DNA of 44,617 nt from Entrophospora sp. SA101 (taxonomy: Eukaryota > Glomeromycota > Glomeromycetes > Entrophosporales > Entrophosporaceae), in the NCBI GenBank assembly GCA_958430865.1, contig CAUDNR010002890.1, forward strand, positions 89,882-134,498, in the 5' to 3' direction. Made by a program: the position numbers and the translations under genes. Shown piece by piece: positions 3,776-44,617 of the stretch; the stretch's first letter is position 1; each line of letters begins with the position of its first letter. A model generated the notes under the pieces. It was not told where the DNA came from. It searched no databases and saw only the letters and a program-made list of their open reading frames with translations.

Positions 3776-4860
3776 TTTATACACAACACAATCATTTGAA
3801 ATTTCCTTTTTTTCGAAAAATTCCTTTTTTTAAACAAATTCTACAACCTTTTTAAAGTTAATACGTCACATTAAATTAAATTCATCATATTCTTTCGTTA
3901 ATTAATGAAAACTTTTAAACTAGACAAAAAATCCCGTGATTTTGATGAAAACTTTGAGCTTAGTAAAAAACTTCAAAATTCCGTTGAATCATGAATTAAG
4001 CAAGTCCATTTAAAATATCTTGAATATATATACACGGCGAGACTGCGTTAAAAAGCATATTAATATACTAACACTTAAATCATTTAAAAGTTGACAATAA
4101 TAATGCCCGTTCCAATCCTTCTTTAGCACGTAATAATAAAAGTAAGTTACATCATTTTCCAAACTCGAGTATTTAAAGTTACAGATAGTGATGTTAGCCG
4201 GCTTAGCCGGCTAAAAAAATTTTTCTTGACGTTCATTTTACGTCTGGGATTTTAGTGCAGAATTCAATGGCATAGACATTTAGTTGAGATGGATCCACTT
4301 AGAATGACAAAAAAAACATACATTTACTCAAAATACAAAATACAAAATGTATATCGTAGCAGGATAAAAGTCATATTTTAATTCGAATTATTATTATTCG
4401 TTCTATTCGAATTATTCGTTTTTTTATTCGTTTATTCGAATAAAACTTTCAATATAATTCGAATACTCAAATTCATAATGAAAAAAAACAAATAATTTGA
4501 ACCATTAAATGCGAGATATTATAATAACAATAGTAAATAATAATAATAATAATAATAACGTTAGTAGTAGTAATAATAATACCGGCAAGCTTAGTATTAG
4601 TACCAACGATTTATTTGATCAAGACATTTGCTAAGCGATTTATTTGGCTAAGCCATTCATTCGTCACATTATTACACTTAATCGCGTGGGGTGCGAATAA
4701 CAATTCCCTAAATATTAATATAAAGTATTAAATGACGTTTATTATTATAAGAAATTAAATAAGAAATATAAGGGATAAATAAATAAAGATATTAATATAA
4801 ATAGAAATAAAAAGATTCGATTCGGAATTAGGGTATTTCGACCAACAAATCAGCTTTAAA
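3776..4860 (+). repeat. Dispersed repeat, copy 1 (inverted copy at 40570-40860)
   Basis: The stretch 3776-3905 (AATTTCCTTTTTT...AAATTCCTTTTTT, then a segment ending CATATTCTTTCGTTAA) matches the reverse complement of about 40690-40860. The stretch 4790-4860 (ATAAATAGAAATAAAA...CGGAATTAGGGTATT) matches the reverse complement of 40570-40640. Order and orientation are conserved, but the two blocks are about 900 bp apart here and only about 50 bp apart in the other copy. A probable MITE at 4186-4671 accounts for much of the difference. The repeat family is not identified and no coding capacity is seen. Confidence 0.5.
4186..4671. mobile_element. Probable hAT-like MITE (about 485 bp)
   Basis: The left end TAGTGATGTTAGCCGG and the right end, reverse complemented TAATGTGACGAATG, share a TA(G/A)TG start and subterminal GGCTTAGCC motifs. 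The flanks TTACAGAT and TTACACTT agree at six of eight positions, so a target duplication is possible but not proven. The interior has many TTCGAATA/TATTCGAA palindromes and a (TAA)n tract. It interrupts the dispersed repeat whose other copy lacks it. Confidence 0.4.
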
Positions 4861-4922
4861 TCCTAATTCCAATAACAACTGCATGCAATTTGAAAGCAAA
4901 AATTCGCTTTCATTTTTTTTTT

Positions 4923-4930
4923 TATAAATA
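4923..4930 (+). promoter_or_regulatory. TATA box of the microexon gene
   Basis: TATAAATA lies 70 bp upstream of the ATG at 5000. It is followed by a purine-rich leader (caagaaaaacttgac) and an A-rich context (atcaaaATG) at the start codon. Confidence 0.45.
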
Positions 4931-4999
4931 CTCTTACAGTAATCCTATATAATTTGAAAATCAAGAAAAACTTGACAAAAATTATCTGAATAAATCAAA

Positions 5000-6369
5000 A
5001 TGAAATTCAATATTTCTCTTCTCTTTTTGATTATCTTTGCTGTCATGGCTTTAGCAAGCCCAACTCATAACAATAATTTGGTGAAGAGATGTACTTCATT
5101 TATTATTATATTTACTATTACAATAATATCATTATATTTGTATAATTGTTTTTGAAAAATTACTAACTATTGGGTTTCATTTGATTTTAAATAATAAATA
5201 GCCGTGTAAGTATTTTTGTACTATTTATTATAGTCAATATCATTATTTTTGAATAAATATTAATTATTGATTTTCATTTTATTTTAAATAATAAATAGTG
5301 TAAGTATTCTCATCATTTCACCATTAATATCATTGTTTTTGAAAACATATTAACTGTTGGCTTTCATTTTATTTTAAATAATAAATATAGAACGTAAGTA
5401 TTCTCATCATTTCACTATTGTTACAGTCAATATCATTGTTTTTCTGAAAATATTAACTATTGGTTTTTGTTTTATCTTAAATAATAAATATAGTGTGTAA
5501 GTATTCTCATCATTATTATTACTACAGTTGATATCATTGTTTTTCTGAAAATATTAACTGTTGATTTTCATTTTATCTTAAATAATAAATAGGAAGTAAG
5601 TATTCTCATCATTTCACTACTAATATCATTGTTTTTGAAAACATATTAACTGTTGATTTTCGTTTTATCTTAAATAATAAATATAGGCTGTAAGTATTCT
5701 CATCATTTCACTATTATTACAGTCAATATCATTGTTTTTGAAAACATATTAACTGTTGATTTTCATTTTATTTTAAATAATAAATATAGAATGTAAGTAT
5801 TTTTATCACTTCACTATTATTACAGTCAATATCATTGTTTTTGAAAACATATTAACTGTTGATTTTTGCTTTATTTTAAATAATAAATAGTGTGTAAGTA
5901 TTCTCATCATTTCACTATTATTACAGTCAATATCATTGTTTTTGAAAACATACTAATTGTTGATTTTTGTTTATTTTAAATAGTAAATAGAAAGTAAGTA
6001 TTTTTATTATTACAGCCAATATTATTCTTGAAAAATATTAACTGTTGTTTTTTGTTTATTTTAAATAATAAATAAAAGGTAAGTATTTTTATCATTTACT
6101 CCCATTACCATTGTTTTTGTAAACATATTAACTGCTGATTGATTTTCATTTTAAATAATAAATAGGCAAGTATTTTTATTGATTACTATTATTACAGCTT
6201 GAAAAATATTAACTATTTGATTTTCAATTTATTTTAAATAATAAATAGGCAAGTATTCTTAACATTTACCATTATTACATTCAATTGTTTTGAAAAAATA
6301 TTAACTGTTGATTGATTTTCTTTTTATTTTAAATAGAAAATAGGCTGTATTTGCTCTTTGGCTCTTTGA
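5000..6369 (+). CDS. Predicted secreted cysteine peptide encoded by a tandem array of 1-4 nt microexons
   Basis: Proposed CDS: join(5000..5090, 5202..5205, 5299..5299, 5391..5393, 5494..5496, 5593..5595, 5687..5689, 5790..5792, 5891..5893, 5991..5993, 6337..6369), 150 nt, 49 residues. Exon 1 encodes a signal peptide (MKFNISLLFLIIFAVMALA), a short pro-segment and a Lys-Arg Kex2-type site at residues 29-30. T|CC and GT|T then spell Ser and Val. The seven 3-nt exons AAC, TGT, GAA, GCT, AAT, TGT, AAA give Asn, Cys, Glu, Ala, Asn, Cys, Lys. The last exon gives KIGCICSLAL and TGA. The predicted mature peptide has 19 residues and four cysteines spaced C-x3-C-x4-C-x-C. Every microexon lies between an AAATAG or TATAG acceptor and GTAAGTATT. 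Exon calls are inferred from sequence; whether all are spliced in is unknown. The start ATG is fixed by the signal peptide. Confidence 0.6.
5091..6336 (+). repeat. Tandem array of about 13 intron-like units of 83-111 bp
   Basis: Each unit begins GTAAGTATTCTCATCATTTC-like, contains TCAATATCATTGTTTTTGAA and a branch-site-like TATTAACTGTTG, and ends TTTTAAATAATAAATAG. Acceptor/donor junctions fall at 5202, 5299, 5391, 5494, 5593, 5687, 5790, 5891, 5991, 6079, 6166 and 6249. The first intron (donor GTACTT at 5091) is homologous to the others. In the last three junctions the exon has shrunk to nothing: AG|GTAAGT at 6078/6079 and AG|GCAAGT at 6165/6166 and 6248/6249. The intron bodies are far more alike than the codons between them. 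Confidence 0.85.
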
Positions 6370-7687
6370 TAACTTCATTTATCTCTTTTACTTTTTTTAC
6401 TTTCATCTTATTTTTTATTGTTGGTTATAATTTTTACGTTACTTAAGATTCATGCAAACTATAGTGTTTATATTATAACATAGGAAGCGAAAATAAATAA
6501 AACAGTTCATACACAATAAGTGTTTATTATAATTTGAAAAGATTTATATGTGTCAATTTAAATGGGAATGAAAATGAATAAAGTTACATCCGATAAAAGA
6601 GTTAAATAATGATATAGTGCGGATCATCTATACCCAAAAGTTAAAATTTTTGAAAGATTATGTGATCCAAACATTGGATTTTAAAAAAACCACCACCATT
6701 CAATTCAGTTTTAAAAAGGGAGTCTATTTTTCTTTTCATGCATCAGGAAATTTTTTTAGGGGATAAATATTGAGATACATTATTTATCGATATTTATCTC
6801 AATAAAAAAATCGAAAATTAACGAAATAAGATAATTTTCGATAAATTAACTTACGATATTTAGTATCATCGAAATTAATTACCAAGATAATTAACGATAA
6901 AGATAATATATGAAATTAATCACCAAGATAATTAACGACAAAGATTATATACGAAATTAATCACCAATACTAAGATAATTAACGATAGAAAGATTAACAA
7001 ATTGTTTTGTTCCCGCAAGTAGAAATTTTGTAGTTACGAAACAAAATTAATTAATTCGTTTTTTACGTTTTCTAGCGTCTTAGCACTTTTTTTAATTCAA
7101 ACATGGTGTTCCACTAATGCTTAAAATTCTTTCCTGATATTTAATTACAGTTATTCTTTATCGGCATTTTACATTTCCTAATTCATTGTAATTTATTTTC
7201 TTTTCTTTATAACATTCTCTTTTTTTTTTAATTTTTTCTAGACTTTATTTTGCAAAACTTTGATCTTATAACGATCACTTGTTTTGACGTTTCTTCCTTC
7301 TTGCATTATTGCAATTGTTCTTCCATCAATGATCCTATTATCCAATTCTTTCTTTATTTCCATTCTTTAATTAAAACTTTCCGAATGTATTATTTTTAGG
7401 TCCGGCCCCTTTTTTTTACTATTTTCCGAAGACTCATTCTATTTGAATTGAACAGGTTTATCTAGTCTTCTGATTCGTTTGTGCATTGTTTATATTTTGT
7501 TTTATTAATCATTAATGGCTTTGTGCAACATTTCGGTAATTGAATTTCATGTTTATTCCTAGTACTAGGATACTTTTTCCGTGACAGGGTTTCTTCCGTA
7601 TAAAAGGGCCGAATTTTGAATTTTTAAATTTTTGAATTTTAGCCTTTTGAATGTTATTAAAATTTTTAAAATAATTTCTTCGATCTA
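6370..7687. other. Gene-free stretch downstream of the microexon gene, with a 41-bp tandem repeat
   Basis: An AATAAA at about 6491 could end the microexon transcript. From 6871 to 6994 a 41-bp unit (GAAATTAATCACCAAGATAA, then TTAACGAyAAAGATwATATA) is repeated three times, starting at 6871, 6912 and 6953. The rest is pyrimidine-rich, with no exon chain I can support. Confidence 0.55.
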
Positions 7688-7878
7688 TTTTTCGTCATAA
7701 CCTTTCTTTAACGCTTCTTTGATTCTAAGGGTATATTTTTCGTCATAGCCTTCCTTGAGCGCTTCTTTAATTATAAAAGTATATTTTTTAGTTAAGTCTT
7801 CCTTGAACACTTCGTTGATTTTAAAAGTATAATTTTCTTCGTAGCCTTTCTTGAACGCTTCTGCATTCTAACAGTATA
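7688..7878 (-). repeat. 48-bp tandem repeat that keeps a 16-residue frame on the minus strand
   Basis: Four units begin at 7688, 7736, 7784 and 7832, the last 1 bp short; a fifth, decayed unit follows to about 7930. Read on the minus strand, the first three are open and encode 16-residue repeats: YTLRIKEALKKGYDEK, YTFIIKEALKEGYDEK and YTFKINEVFKEDLTKK. A less complete AFKKGYEEN unit lies upstream, and a TAG at 7687-7685 follows. An exact 48-bp period without stops suggests a former amphipathic repeat protein, rich in Lys and Glu. No start codon, promoter or partner exon is visible, so it is treated as a relic. Confidence 0.5.
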
Positions 7879-8799
7879 GTTTTAGTCCTAACCTTTCTTG
7901 ATCTCTTGTCCCTTATCATTAGTTATTCTAAAGGTACAGTTTTACTTTATTTGCTTTTTATCTCCGGAATTTTACGTCTAGTCTTCTTCAATTATTAATT
8001 ATATAGTGCCTTTCGGTGGTGATAGTATTTACTCTTCCTTTCGTTCAGTGGCTATGGTGTTAATTGTTTCCTTTCGTATTTATCCTTGTTTTCACAGGTA
8101 ATGTTTTTCTTATCACGTATCCTGTTTCTTCCACTTTAAAATAGTATATATCTTAACTTCAGCTATTCGGCTGAAAAACTTAATTCCAATAATATATATG
8201 TTTATACAGGTTCGTGACTATAACTCTTCAGCAAAGGATATGAGAATCCATTTGCAAATTATAGTCCTGTTCTCGTCACCAAATGCAAGCGAATAAATTC
8301 CAGTTACCAACTCATGACGTGTCCAATAAATATATGTAAAAAAAAATATAAAGCATAAAACCCAATAATTATGAAGTTTATCCGTTTCTGCACACAGCTC
8401 AGGAGCTTCTCAAAATACTCTATTGCGCAATTTCTACTTAGTGCTAATGCTAAGCACCACTAGCGCACAGCCTAAGATGATAAATAAAAACAGAATATAT
8501 AGTGCGAATCATCTAAAGACATCATGTGCTGCGCCATTTACCGAAAAAATTTTATGCCGATCTTGCTTTATAAAGAATATATACACGATTCAAAAGAAAA
8601 TTTATTTGAAGAGAATGAATTAATATTTACTCATTTATTCATCAAGTAATAATTATCAATTTTAAAAATTTTCTTAAAAAATAACCTCATTCTGTAAAGG
8701 TATGTTTTCGTTTTAAAAAAAATGCAACATTTTTGAAGGCAAAGCTCTCTGCGGGAGTGCGAGATTTTTTAATAATAATGAACCTATTTTTGATCTTAT

Positions 8800-38812: not shown

Positions 38813-39800
38813 TTAAATTCTAATTTTTTCTAATTCTTTTAAAACTTCATCTGGGATCTTTCTATGAGATCTGTACTTTCTAACAGCATATTCTGCTAAT
38901 TTTCCACCTATTCCATGTCTATATAAATCCATGTATCTCCATGCTTTTTGGGCAAATCTTCTAATTGTAATCAAAGGCACAGGATCCAAGCTTTGGGAAA
39001 CAGTTTCTTGTAATCCAGTCCATGAGTAATTGCAATTTTCTCTGGCATGACATTTAGCAGCTCCCCAATACCTTTCAATGAAATTTAACTCACAGTGAAA
39101 TTTTGGGTAAAAGATACACTTATGCCTTGCCCTTTCAATCAACCCCTGAATTGCACCTTTTTGTGCTTGAAAACCTGGTTCAAGGGAAATGATTTTTTGT
39201 GCACAGCAATTCACTCTAGCTTCATCTGCAACTTTTTTTTACAATTTTTACATTCAGCTAACAACCCTTCATACCATTTCCCTCTCTCAATTAATATTTG
39301 TTTCATTCTTTTAGGTTCTCCACATAATGATTCTACAGAATAATCACCTGGAAAAGCCATATCTTGTGATTGATTATTTGGCTCAAAAAAAGTCTATTGC
39401 ATTTTAGGCTGCTTGCCACCAGGACCAAGATTCATTTGTAAGCCACAAGTGCATCTTGACTAAATGCAGCATGGTTTGAACTGTTGTCAAAAGCAAATAC
39501 TGCAATACAATTAGGATATAGGGCCTCAAATATTGGAATTGCTTTTTGTCCAATTTGTTGAAGAAGATGTTCAGAGGTCCAGTAACCTTCTCTATTTTTG
39601 CCAGGTTTTAAATAACAACATGCTTCTTTTGGAATGCTTGGATATTTTTTGACTTCATCAAATGGTATTTGTAATCTTCCATTTATTTCAGTTAAAAATT
39701 CACTAACTAATATTGACCTTCCATTACCTTTTTTCCTTAAGGGCATTTCTCCATCTTTGATCCAAATACCACACTTTCCATCATTTAATAGAAAATGCAT
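38813..39800 (-). pseudogene. Decayed IS630/Tc1-mariner-type DDE transposase
   Basis: The minus strand gives, in order: GKCGIWIKDGEMPLRKKG, SILVSEFLTEINGRL, LYPNCIAVFAFDNSSNHAAF, ALVAYKMNLGPGGKQPKMQ, TAG, AFPGDYSVESLCGEPKRMKQ, a frameshift near 39235 in a poly-A run, then CAQKIISLEPGFQAQKGAIQ, FYPKFHCELNFIERYWGAAK and RRFAQKAWRYMDLYR. FDNSSNH (second Asp) and ELNFIExxWG (final Glu) correspond to DDE motifs of the IS630-Tc1-mariner superfamily; close relatives are common in fungi. The N-terminal catalytic Asp is missing, cut off by the MITE at 39811. Its stop is TAG, unlike the TGA excess at 26-30 kb. Confidence 0.65.
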
Positions 39801-43798: not shown

Positions 43799-44225
43799 CT
43801 ATTTTTAATAAAATAGACTATTTCGTAGCCAAATGGTATATACATTGATTGAGTAGTCTAATAAAACATATAAATAAACCACTACTCCAAAAAACGAGCA
43901 CCAGTTTTGCTTTTTACGTTGTATTCTTTAATAAAATAGACCATTTTGTGGCCAAATGATCCATTGGTCAAGTAGTCTAATAAATTACTACAAAACATAT
44001 AAACAAACCCGCTATCCACTTGTGGACAAAAAAATCACAAAAAAACGAGCACTAGTTTTGCTTTTTACATTGTATTCTTTAATAAAATAGACCATTTTGT
44101 GGCCAAATGATCCATTGGTCAAGTAGTCTAATAAATTACTACATAAACATATAAATAGACCTGCTACCCCACTTGTAGATCAAAATTGCAAAAAAGAGTG
44201 GATCAGATTTGCTTTTACGTTGCAT
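43799..44225. repeat. Tandem repeat, about 151-bp unit, three copies
   Basis: GTATTCTTTAATAAAATAGA recurs at 43921 and 44072, with a diverged, shorter copy at about 43800. Each unit continues CCATTTTGTGGCCAAATG, GTCAAGTAGTCTAATAAA and AACGAGCACTAGTTTTGC. Copies two and three are very similar. No frame is conserved. Confidence 0.75.
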
Positions 44226-44617
44226 TCAAATGTGAGGGTTAAAGAATACTCTACATTATTATCCATTTGTTGAGAAAAAATTTATTTATATTTATTTAAT
44301 GATTAAAGAGTCATTACATGAATAATAAAAAAATTATAAAGAATTTAATAAAAGTCTAATTCCATTTGAGATATAGATGGCCAAAAAGATGTAATTTTCT
44401 TGATGGATGTATGTAATTGATGAAAAGAAGCATGTATATCATCATTTATATAATAATGATAATAGTATAGTGCCGGTCACAAGTACACATCCAATAAAAA
44501 TTGCCTTTCTAAGAAATGATATTCAGCAAAATAGAAAAACCATTTTGAAAAAATAACATCATCATTTTGTTTATTTTAAGTAAAGCTATCAACTGGCGAT
44601 TAGATTTTGAACATTGG
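44226..44617. other. AT-rich end of window, nothing recognised
   Basis: No open frame, exon or repeat terminus can be supported in the last 390 bp. Confidence 0.6.

Follow-up and report, generated by a model that had tools for sequence, protein, structure and literature searches.

A gene family of Entrophospora predicted to encode secreted peptides one codon per exon

Organisation of the locus

The window (the whole 44,617-nucleotide stretch analysed) comes from the genome of the arbuscular mycorrhizal fungus Entrophospora sp. SA101, and the gene under study occupies positions 5000..6369 of its + strand. The locus consists of a leader exon followed by an array of microexons set between look-alike introns of about 97 nt (Table 1). 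It very probably belongs to a gene family whose peptides are likely secreted and likely processed by Kex2, with the variable mature part lying as single codons between these introns and predicted to be joined during splicing.

The initial annotation had placed seven 3-nt segments in the array (AAC, TGT, GAA, GCT, AAT, TGT and AAA), and when positions 4400-7400 of the window were read, each was found where it had been placed, between ...TAG and GTAAGTATT. The TAG-NNN-GTAAGTATT junction, that is TAGNNNGTAAGTATT, occurred 7 times in the window, all in this array; 100 shuffles preserving dinucleotides averaged 0.02. The proposed total of 150 nt in a single open frame was also recovered (91 + 4 + 1 + 21 + 33 nt), and the predicted product ends, after the leader, in KR followed by SVNCEANCKKIGCICSLAL and a stop. 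The KR that ends exon 1 is a likely Kex2 site.

Other parts of the first layout were amended. The run of seven codons was retained, and its frame additionally requires the 4-nt and 1-nt exons upstream of the run. The last exon does follow codon 7 in frame, and three zero-nt units between them, AG/GTAAGTATT and then AG/GCAAGTATT twice, had been omitted. The C-x3-C-x4-C-x-C spacing was upheld in its codon-per-exon core and became doubtful in its last two Cys, which depend on a copy-specific difference of 9 nt. Where the last exon of a relative was reached with the same anchor, its main-class form was AAATAG/AAAATAGAGTAAATAGGCTG (K I E stop); the window copy is without the 9-nt AGTAAATAG containing this stop, and the C-x-C tail is peculiar to that copy.

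Table 1. Predicted features of the array. Donor-like starts are those of GTAAGTATT or GCAAGTATT; the length of each unit with such a start equals its gap from acceptor AG to donor.
Feature	Position	Length (nt)	Strand	Donor-like start	Basis
Exon 1: leader MKFNISLLFLIIFAVMALAS, PTHNNNLVKR and 1 nt (phase 1)	5000..5090	91	+		Leader conserved in 12 aligned members
Introns with interspersed microexons: donor GTAAGTATT (intron 1: GTACTT), branch-like TTAAC, AG-poor zone, acceptor	5091..6336		+		
Exon 2, CCGT	5202..5205	4	+	5206	AG-to-donor spacing
Exon 3, T, brings phase back to 0	5299..5299	1	+	5300	AG-to-donor spacing
Single-codon exon AAC (Asn)	5391..5393	3	+	5394	Junction motif
Single-codon exon TGT (Cys)	5494..5496	3	+	5497	Junction motif
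Single-codon exon GAA (Glu)	5593..5595	3	+	5596	Junction motif
Single-codon exon GCT (Ala)	5687..5689	3	+	5690	Junction motif
Single-codon exon AAT (Asn)	5790..5792	3	+	5793	Junction motif
Single-codon exon TGT (Cys)	5891..5893	3	+	5894	Junction motif
Single-codon exon AAA (Lys)	5991..5993	3	+	5994	Junction motif
Zero-nt unit AG/GTAAGTATT, ratchet-like	6077..6087	0	+	6079	Zero-nt units also end relatives' arrays
Zero-nt unit AG/GCAAGTATT, GC donor	6164..6174	0	+	6166	Juxtaposed acceptor and donor
Zero-nt unit AG/GCAAGTATT, GC donor	6247..6257	0	+	6249	Juxtaposed acceptor and donor
Last exon from first of two AGs: KIGCICSLAL, stop	6337..6369	33	+		Copy-specific; main-class relatives have KIE, stop

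Distribution of the family in the genome

By its similarity to other loci, the window gene is one copy of a multigene family in Entrophospora; the mycorrhizal setting supposed for it at the outset is supported, as the genus belongs to Glomeromycotina. The 1,370-nt locus matched 99 places in its own 101-Mb genome, and a query of the leader and upstream region matched at least 40 places covering exon 1, counting the window (scoring was done on 40 of the 118 candidates, and some of these places sit on contigs resembling duplicates). Exact junctions in the two acceptor registers numbered 238 and 305 genome-wide, 543 together, compared with 4 and 1 (5 together) in backward-read controls. Among the matches listed, the first register held no stop triplet, and the second held TGA only on contigs C65 and C200, which carry arrays of the phase-2 class described below.

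A chain parse with site scores trained on 3-nt junctions and a mild preference for 3 nt gave 32 arrays preceded by a leader when run over both strands of the window and L009-L045; the chains of L021 and L044 were taken from a separate parse since they were truncated in the main one. The parsed arrays consist of the leader exon, a 4-nt and a 1-nt exon (or 1+1, 4+4 or 4+7), and then up to 45 three-nt exons (30 in L013, 36 in L030 and 45 in L019). A leader-free parse of the same sources gave chains over the score limit on one strand only per source.

Exon lengths and reading frame

The 3-nt spacing was also obtained from a model-free test, in which every exact GTAAGTATT in the window and L009-L053 (rRNA loci excluded) was taken, followed upstream to the nearest TTAAC or CTAAC at least 25 nt away, and the first AG after that motif recorded. 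Of 362 distinct donors, 305 had this AG ending exactly 3 nt upstream, while spacings of 4, 0 and 1 nt were found at 14, 8 and 3 donors, respectively; a further 96 donors without a branch motif (not de-duplicated) were set aside. The 305 triplets included 3 TGA, 0 TAA and 0 TAG, in a pool that contains the phase-2 arrays, where TGA occurs. An anchor search without length preference gave 3-nt exons at 316 of 423 junctions (duplicates included, together with a spurious minus-strand cluster of 4, one of whose triplets was TAA). After removal of 177 exact duplicates from 582 parsed units, 405 distinct units remained: 324 of 3 nt, 29 of 4 nt, 27 of 0 nt, 12 of 1 nt, and 13 of 2, 6, 7, 9, 10 or 12 nt. 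The lengths of the 395 introns of 72-129 nt fell into all three classes modulo 3 (102/136/157), from which it follows that the introns tolerate insertions and deletions freely and the exons do not.

Exon 2 was 4 nt long in 28 of the 32 parsed arrays, 1 nt in 3 and of another length in 1, and exon 3 in the relatives was 4 nt (16), 1 nt (12), 7 nt (1) or 3 nt (2, broken copies). Despite combined lengths of 1+1, 4+1, 4+4 or 4+7 nt for these two exons, phase 0 was kept on entering the codon run in 25 of 29 distinct arrays; a thirtieth distinct array, L043, is a single unit and stands outside this count. The exceptions were L022 and L023 (frameshifted leader), L039 (exon-3 donor lost) and L045 (exon-2 donor mutated).

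An uninterrupted frame led from ATG to a stop near the end in 17 of the 30 distinct arrays (L009, L010, L013, L014, L017, L018, L019, L020, L021, L025, L027, L030, L031, L032, L035, L037 and the window). The other 13 are either broken (L022, L023, L039, L041, L043, L045) or have the last exon outside the parsed stretch (L012, L015, L026, L033, L036, L038, L044). The run ends in L009, L020, L021 and L025 with an exon of 12, 6 or 9 nt followed by one of 10 or 7 nt, and the final T forms the stop with the AA or AG of the next exon; in other arrays the last exon begins with TAA or reads AAA ATA GAG TAA. Exons of 1 nt were found as exon 3 and, in L009, L021 and L043, as exon 2. One Tyr codon in L009 is predicted to come from three exons, T, A and T.

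Behaviour of the triplets as codons

The main class comprised 323 triplets, taken from the second unit onwards of leader-bearing arrays outside the phase-2 class. No stop was found among them, compared with 15.7 expected from the base composition at each position, and the 19 amino acids that they encode include Cys (54), Glu (33) and Asp (30).

The phase-2 class is represented by L029 (C65:11200-16200) and L049 (C200:5400-9300), in which the leader ends with one codon base and exon 2 measures 4 or 7 nt (that of L049 being read from the first of two AGs), so that codons must straddle exons. The test used the 59 three-nt exons of these two arrays; L029 is internally duplicated, and its near-copies L048 and L050 were left out. 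T stood at exon position 3 in 7 of the 59, compared with 217 of the 323 main-class triplets (Fisher, nominal p 1.3e-15), and at exon position 1 in 34 of the 59. The T-rich third codon position thus shifts to exon position 1, where the lengths of the upstream exons place it in phase 2. TGA triplets accounted for 4 of the 59 exons and none of them is a codon in the predicted frame. The predicted frames read KKRDCDPDPHSIDPCPVFTTP... and HRKDPPIQHDFPICCSGDPISGCDPRW; these peptides are Asp-Pro-Cys-rich.

A stop-free reading as sole proof was rejected as too weak: L030 is also stop-free in a wrong frame, and, to the detriment of the codon reading, L029 and L049 are each stop-free in one of their two wrong frames. 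The frame test is therefore carried by the moving T-bias and not by the absence of stops. The frame evidence strongly supports the view that the triplets behave as codons, which is the core of reading the array as one codon per exon.

Splicing signals

A branch-like TTAAC/T or CTAAC/T was found in 313 of the 323 codon units, on average 37 nt before the exon. Between branch and acceptor, AG occurred 17 times, against 274 times in shuffles; GA numbered 323 in that zone, and the longer stretch upstream contained 264 AGs. The donor GTAAGTATT was near-invariant, its weakest positions being +3 (A in 285 of 323) and +7 (A in 301 of 323), and the donor of intron 1 in the relatives was GTACTT, GTAAAT or GTATTT. 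The 5' end of the genome's own U1 RNA is ATACTTACCTGG, which is complementary to GTAAGTAT across all eight intron bases; exon sequence would accordingly hardly be needed for recognition. U2-type spliceosomal introns are marked by GT-AG ends, a donor complementary to U1, a branch site and an AG-poor zone, and all four features were found here.

Codon choice in the main-class exons yields to splicing. NYA and NRA codons numbered 2 and 64 in main-class exons, compared with 107 and 140 in host open reading frames (ORFs) (nominal p 9e-12; the host sample consists of two window ORFs). The NCA:NCT ratio was 1:69 in exons and 62:45 in the host ORFs, and the NAG:NAA ratio was 0:58 and 18:114, respectively. 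NYA is probably rare because, together with the G of the donor, it would form a competing YAG acceptor. The juxtaposed acceptor and donor that characterise ratchet points are present in the window as AG/GT in the first zero-nt unit and as AG/GC in the other two, and they recur at the ends of relatives' arrays.

Predicted peptides and matches among public proteins

The two codons preceding the extra base of exon 1 were KR in 25 of the 30 distinct arrays (two of which carry a frameshift earlier in the leader), and SR, MR, ER, RR or K-stop in the others. The 12 aligned members, read by eye, share a hydrophobic leader core and a conserved stretch of the LA.P..NNNL..R type, and the family peptides are likely secreted and processed by Kex2. 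Products predicted after the basic site include SVNCEADCNFPGCYPGCDELCPQASLKFLAELKIE (L013), IPAWPWWLPKDPCDGENWKCKKKIE (L018) and NPGVCWACGGCISCCCAECCTKEELAALRAALREKFLAELKIE (L030).

Several predicted peptides have a composition of their own. That of L030 (C760:3900-8600) combines a Cys-rich half with a charged Leu/Ala-rich half, TKEELAALRAALREKFLAELKIE, which is amphipathic-helix-like by eye and from which KFLAELKIE recurs in L013. The 17 codon exons of L053 (C139:43700-46200) read IALAAALAAAAAASHHE, which is Ala/Leu-rich, unlike the Cys-rich arrays. A subfamily of L032, L035, L037 and L041 has a leader ending ...NNNL(E/K)(K/E) before the cut site, Gly/Pro/Lys-rich predicted peptides without Cys, and a last exon that starts with TAA.

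Twelve predicted spliced products were compared with 5.8 billion proteins, in a search that scores only proteins of limited length with exact words in common, and two matches at E <= 1 were obtained among 209 candidates. The first, P0001 (JGI, 56 aa, from a 1,024-nt contig, E 4.5e-15), has the leader, KR and then a 25-residue tail, RLPTVWCWDEQWAQWYDCRDPYVSE. Translated genomic copies enter intron 1 where P0001 has this tail, and broken copies stop earlier. P0001 looks like what a spliced message would give. The second match, P0002, is considered below.

Evolution of the units

Divergence was measured within arrays with exact duplicates kept, as their removal biases the zero-difference class. 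In the 21 unit pairs (10 arrays, some of them near-duplicates) with introns 0.5-2% apart, the exon bases were 57% different; the codons differed in 19 of these pairs and were identical in 2. Where the introns were identical, the codons were identical in 13 of 17 pairs, for which reason only the class of 0.5-2% is cited for divergence; the identical units mark duplicated blocks, L019 and L030 being examples. Between close copies (L014/L017/L018; L015/L026) the differences are whole codons, and L012 and L044 have common 3' codons and different 5' codons. Insertion, deletion and shuffling of codons thus appear to proceed by whole intron-codon units. The triplets seem to diversify while the introns stay alike, by codon selection, intron homogenisation or both. 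The arrays of L012 and L044 also end next to a stretch of TATACC/GGTATA words, and together with their codon pattern they look as if recombined.

Proposed mechanism

All the information for splicing would lie in the intron, with the donor GTAAGTAT pairing with U1, a branch some 37 nt upstream of the exon and use of the first AG; the three-base exon would then be free to be almost any codon. An exon of 3 nt could hardly hold both splice-site complexes simultaneously, and for that reason the introns would have to be removed successively, so that with every removal one codon is gained and the following donor comes within reach. At the array end, the zero-nt units would represent steps without any addition. 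If intron-codon units were gained, lost or recombined, whole codons would be inserted, deleted or shuffled without frameshift, which would suit a fast-changing secreted peptide, and the peptides probably act on the host plant or on other microbes.

A bolder form of this proposal, on which our judgement is evenly balanced, is a codon ratchet in which the spliceosome would assemble the text of the peptide, one codon per intron removed, with the zero-nt steps as blanks. As each unit would be an intron sufficient in itself together with a free codon, single amino acids of dozens of secreted peptides would be written, duplicated, deleted and shuffled while the introns are homogenised. Unit skipping may add further variation, with a constant minimal peptide as the limit if every unit is left out.

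Weighing of the explanations

The claim of the initial annotation that the mature peptide is encoded one codon per exon gains from the absence of stops, the kept entry phase, the T-bias that follows the phase, the intact intron signals and P0001, and loses the last two Cys of the window copy. Several observations count against it. The conservation of the sites was partly selected, the parser having been trained on 3-nt junctions (the model-free check is exempt), many arrays share recent duplication ancestry so that the p values overstate independence, and NYA avoidance is absent from the phase-2 arrays (NYA in 5 of 59 exons). The chains skip degenerate units or a long stretch in L019, L020, L032 and L035, and the end of L031 is doubtful. 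Some copies are broken, by a leader frameshift (L022, L023), a stop at the KR site (L041), lost splice sites (L034, L039, L045) or reduction to one unit (L043). The last exon of the window copy is atypical and its final two cysteines are doubtful. The contig of P0001 could be DNA of an intronless relative, P0002 (ENA, 654-nt contig) translates straight into intron 1, and no annotated Entrophospora protein was returned by the family search, with its limited-length, exact-word scoring, though the genus is represented in the database. We infer splicing, isoforms and function from the genomic sequence.

Inclusion of the microexons being predicted from the genomic sequence, there is some room for a very different account, in which the array is a minisatellite within one long intron, exon 1 is joined directly to the last exon and the triplets stay untranslated. 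The number of units does vary freely and decayed copies are present. If exon 1 is joined to the AG that directly precedes GCTGTATT, the whole array is skipped and a short tail stays open in L014, L017 and L018 (SCICSLAL), L020 (CCICFLAL), and L025 and L037 (GCICSLAL), and the window tail is CCICSLAL when joined from the second AG; this tail counts slightly for the satellite and slightly against the reading of one codon per exon. The tail is shifted in L022 and L035 and differs in L045 (NYIRSLTF at the matching place), however, and the window stops at once when joined from the first AG. An unused satellite would not keep the 3-nt spacing between AG and donor (305 of 362) or an AG-poor zone in each unit, nor would it account for 0 stops in 323 triplets, for a T-rich position that tracks the phase predicted from upstream exon lengths, or for exon 2 and exon 3 lengths that co-vary with the phase kept in 25 of 29 arrays. 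We regard this account as very unlikely. A message without microexons may nevertheless encode a small C-x-C peptide, as a minimal isoform or as the true product. As a separate observation, GCTGTATTTGCTCTTTGGCTCTTTGA (window 6344-6369; L014, L018, L025, L037) is conserved and gives xCICSLAL and a stop in the frame of exon 1, as if a whole-array skip had its own product.

The remaining alternatives concern how the units are used, where they came from and what the peptides are. A combinatorial generator, in which units are skipped at will and one gene yields numerous peptide variants, an idea put forward for schistosome microexon genes, is compatible with codon-by-codon splicing and is less likely than not. 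Exons of 3 nt can be skipped without frameshift, and very small exons are prone to skipping (PMC4674806); the strong, near-uniform donors and acceptors and the avoidance of competing-acceptor codons point instead to faithful inclusion in the main class. Intron invasion, by which introner-like elements would have separated the codons of a formerly ordinary gene for a small peptide, leaving introns young and alike and codons old and unrelated, seems unlikely. It fits the 19 of 21 pairs in which introns 0.5-2% apart flank different codons, and P0001 could be the uninterrupted type, but insertion at exactly every third base, even with straddling codons in the phase-2 arrays, is hard to obtain, and blocks of units are plainly duplicated in L019 and L030. 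Introner elements are defined as introns of near-identical sequence that are spread through many unrelated genes and show footprints of insertion. We consider it quite improbable that the genes encode precursors of ribosomally made, modified peptides (RiPPs) of dikaritin-like type instead of plain secreted effectors. The conserved leader, the mostly KR site and the hypervariable core rich in Cys, Asp, Trp and Tyr speak for such precursors. Fungal precursors of the dikaritin type carry several KR-bounded core repeats and are accompanied in the genome by a UstYa (DUF3328) oxidase. Each Entrophospora precursor has one core, with no second KR beyond the leader in the 17 complete ORFs, and a search of the genome for UstYa (DUF3328) gave 0 matches, the control genomes being equally silent.

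Comparison with known systems

Venom families of the conotoxin type have a conserved leader and a hypervariable Cys-rich mature peptide that changes faster than the introns, with the mature part in one exon. The Entrophospora family resembles them in its conserved leader and in a variable Cys-rich mature part that changes faster than the introns, and differs in that the conotoxin mature peptide is not divided among exons. In schistosome microexon genes (MEGs), short symmetric exons of 6-36 bp make up about 80% of the coding region, and such serial exons build variable, mostly secreted proteins (PMC5825161). Other marks of a MEG are a secreted or membrane-anchored product and protein variants through alternative splicing. 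The family would likewise build variable, likely secreted peptides from serial short symmetric exons; unlike those of MEGs, its exons measure 3 nt (also 1, 4, 7 and 0), its introns are tandem copies of one unit and its host is a fungus. Its exons fall below the MEG size range, and by its predicted structure the family works like a MEG without being classed as one.

Single tiny exons have been described elsewhere, namely a single-nucleotide exon in Arabidopsis APC11 (PMC4674806), a 1-nt exon in Fusarium CYP621A, reported in 2026 and the first for a fungal gene according to its authors (PMC12940212), and a microexon of 20 nt in Trichoderma, for which a 2024 paper claimed the first functional case among filamentous fungi (PMC11121469). 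The Entrophospora exons likewise lie far below the size of exon definition, 1-nt exons included; APC11 and CYP621A have one tiny exon per gene for a conserved protein, whereas whole runs are found here, with a codon spread over three exons in L009. Isolated 3-nt microexons in mouse Ncam and Drosophila TnT indicate that a single-codon exon can be spliced, and these are described singly and not in serial runs (PMC8042270). Ratchet points of Drosophila are juxtaposed AG/GT sites requiring a cryptic exon, with stepwise removal exposing the next donor (PMC8605326). The same juxtaposition occurs here, and such stepwise removal is predicted, but the fly sites lie in long introns, skip the cryptic exon and add nothing, while here the introns are about 97 nt and one codon is predicted per step. 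SP7-like effectors are a secreted family of arbuscular mycorrhizal fungi with repeats and a conserved intron, and in these SP7 features the families are alike (PMC11333574); the main text of the SP7 paper is without the term 'microexon' (PMC11333574), in contrast to the Entrophospora arrays.

None of the systems in cited papers is a gene built of serial single-codon exons. Searches of open-licence literature on microexons in arbuscular mycorrhizal fungi or Glomeromycota, in fungi and in Rhizophagus, on the smallest or single-codon exons, on recursive splicing and on the Entrophospora genome listed no such gene, most subscription journals and bioRxiv lying outside this scope. We rate the predicted architecture of serial single-codon exons as a new kind, or as an extreme variant if all microexon genes are taken as one kind.

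If transcripts confirm the prediction, a whole gene family would have one codon per exon, below the 6-36 bp known for MEGs and hard to reconcile with exon definition, and the spliceosome would manage dozens of successive steps on almost no exonic information. The family would then offer a natural system for recursive splicing and splicing fidelity, and an evolutionary device with single amino acids as cut-and-paste units. Such genes are readily missed by gene finders and short-read aligners, and since the family search returned no annotated Entrophospora member, a class of mycorrhizal secreted peptides may have been overlooked.

Other features of the window

Two ORFs on the minus strand at 38813-39800 (38813-39214 and 39432-39800) have DDE-transposase-like text, the family being judged by eye. 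Tandem repeats were found at 7686-7901 (48 bp x 4.5) and at 43889-44227 (151 bp x 2.3).

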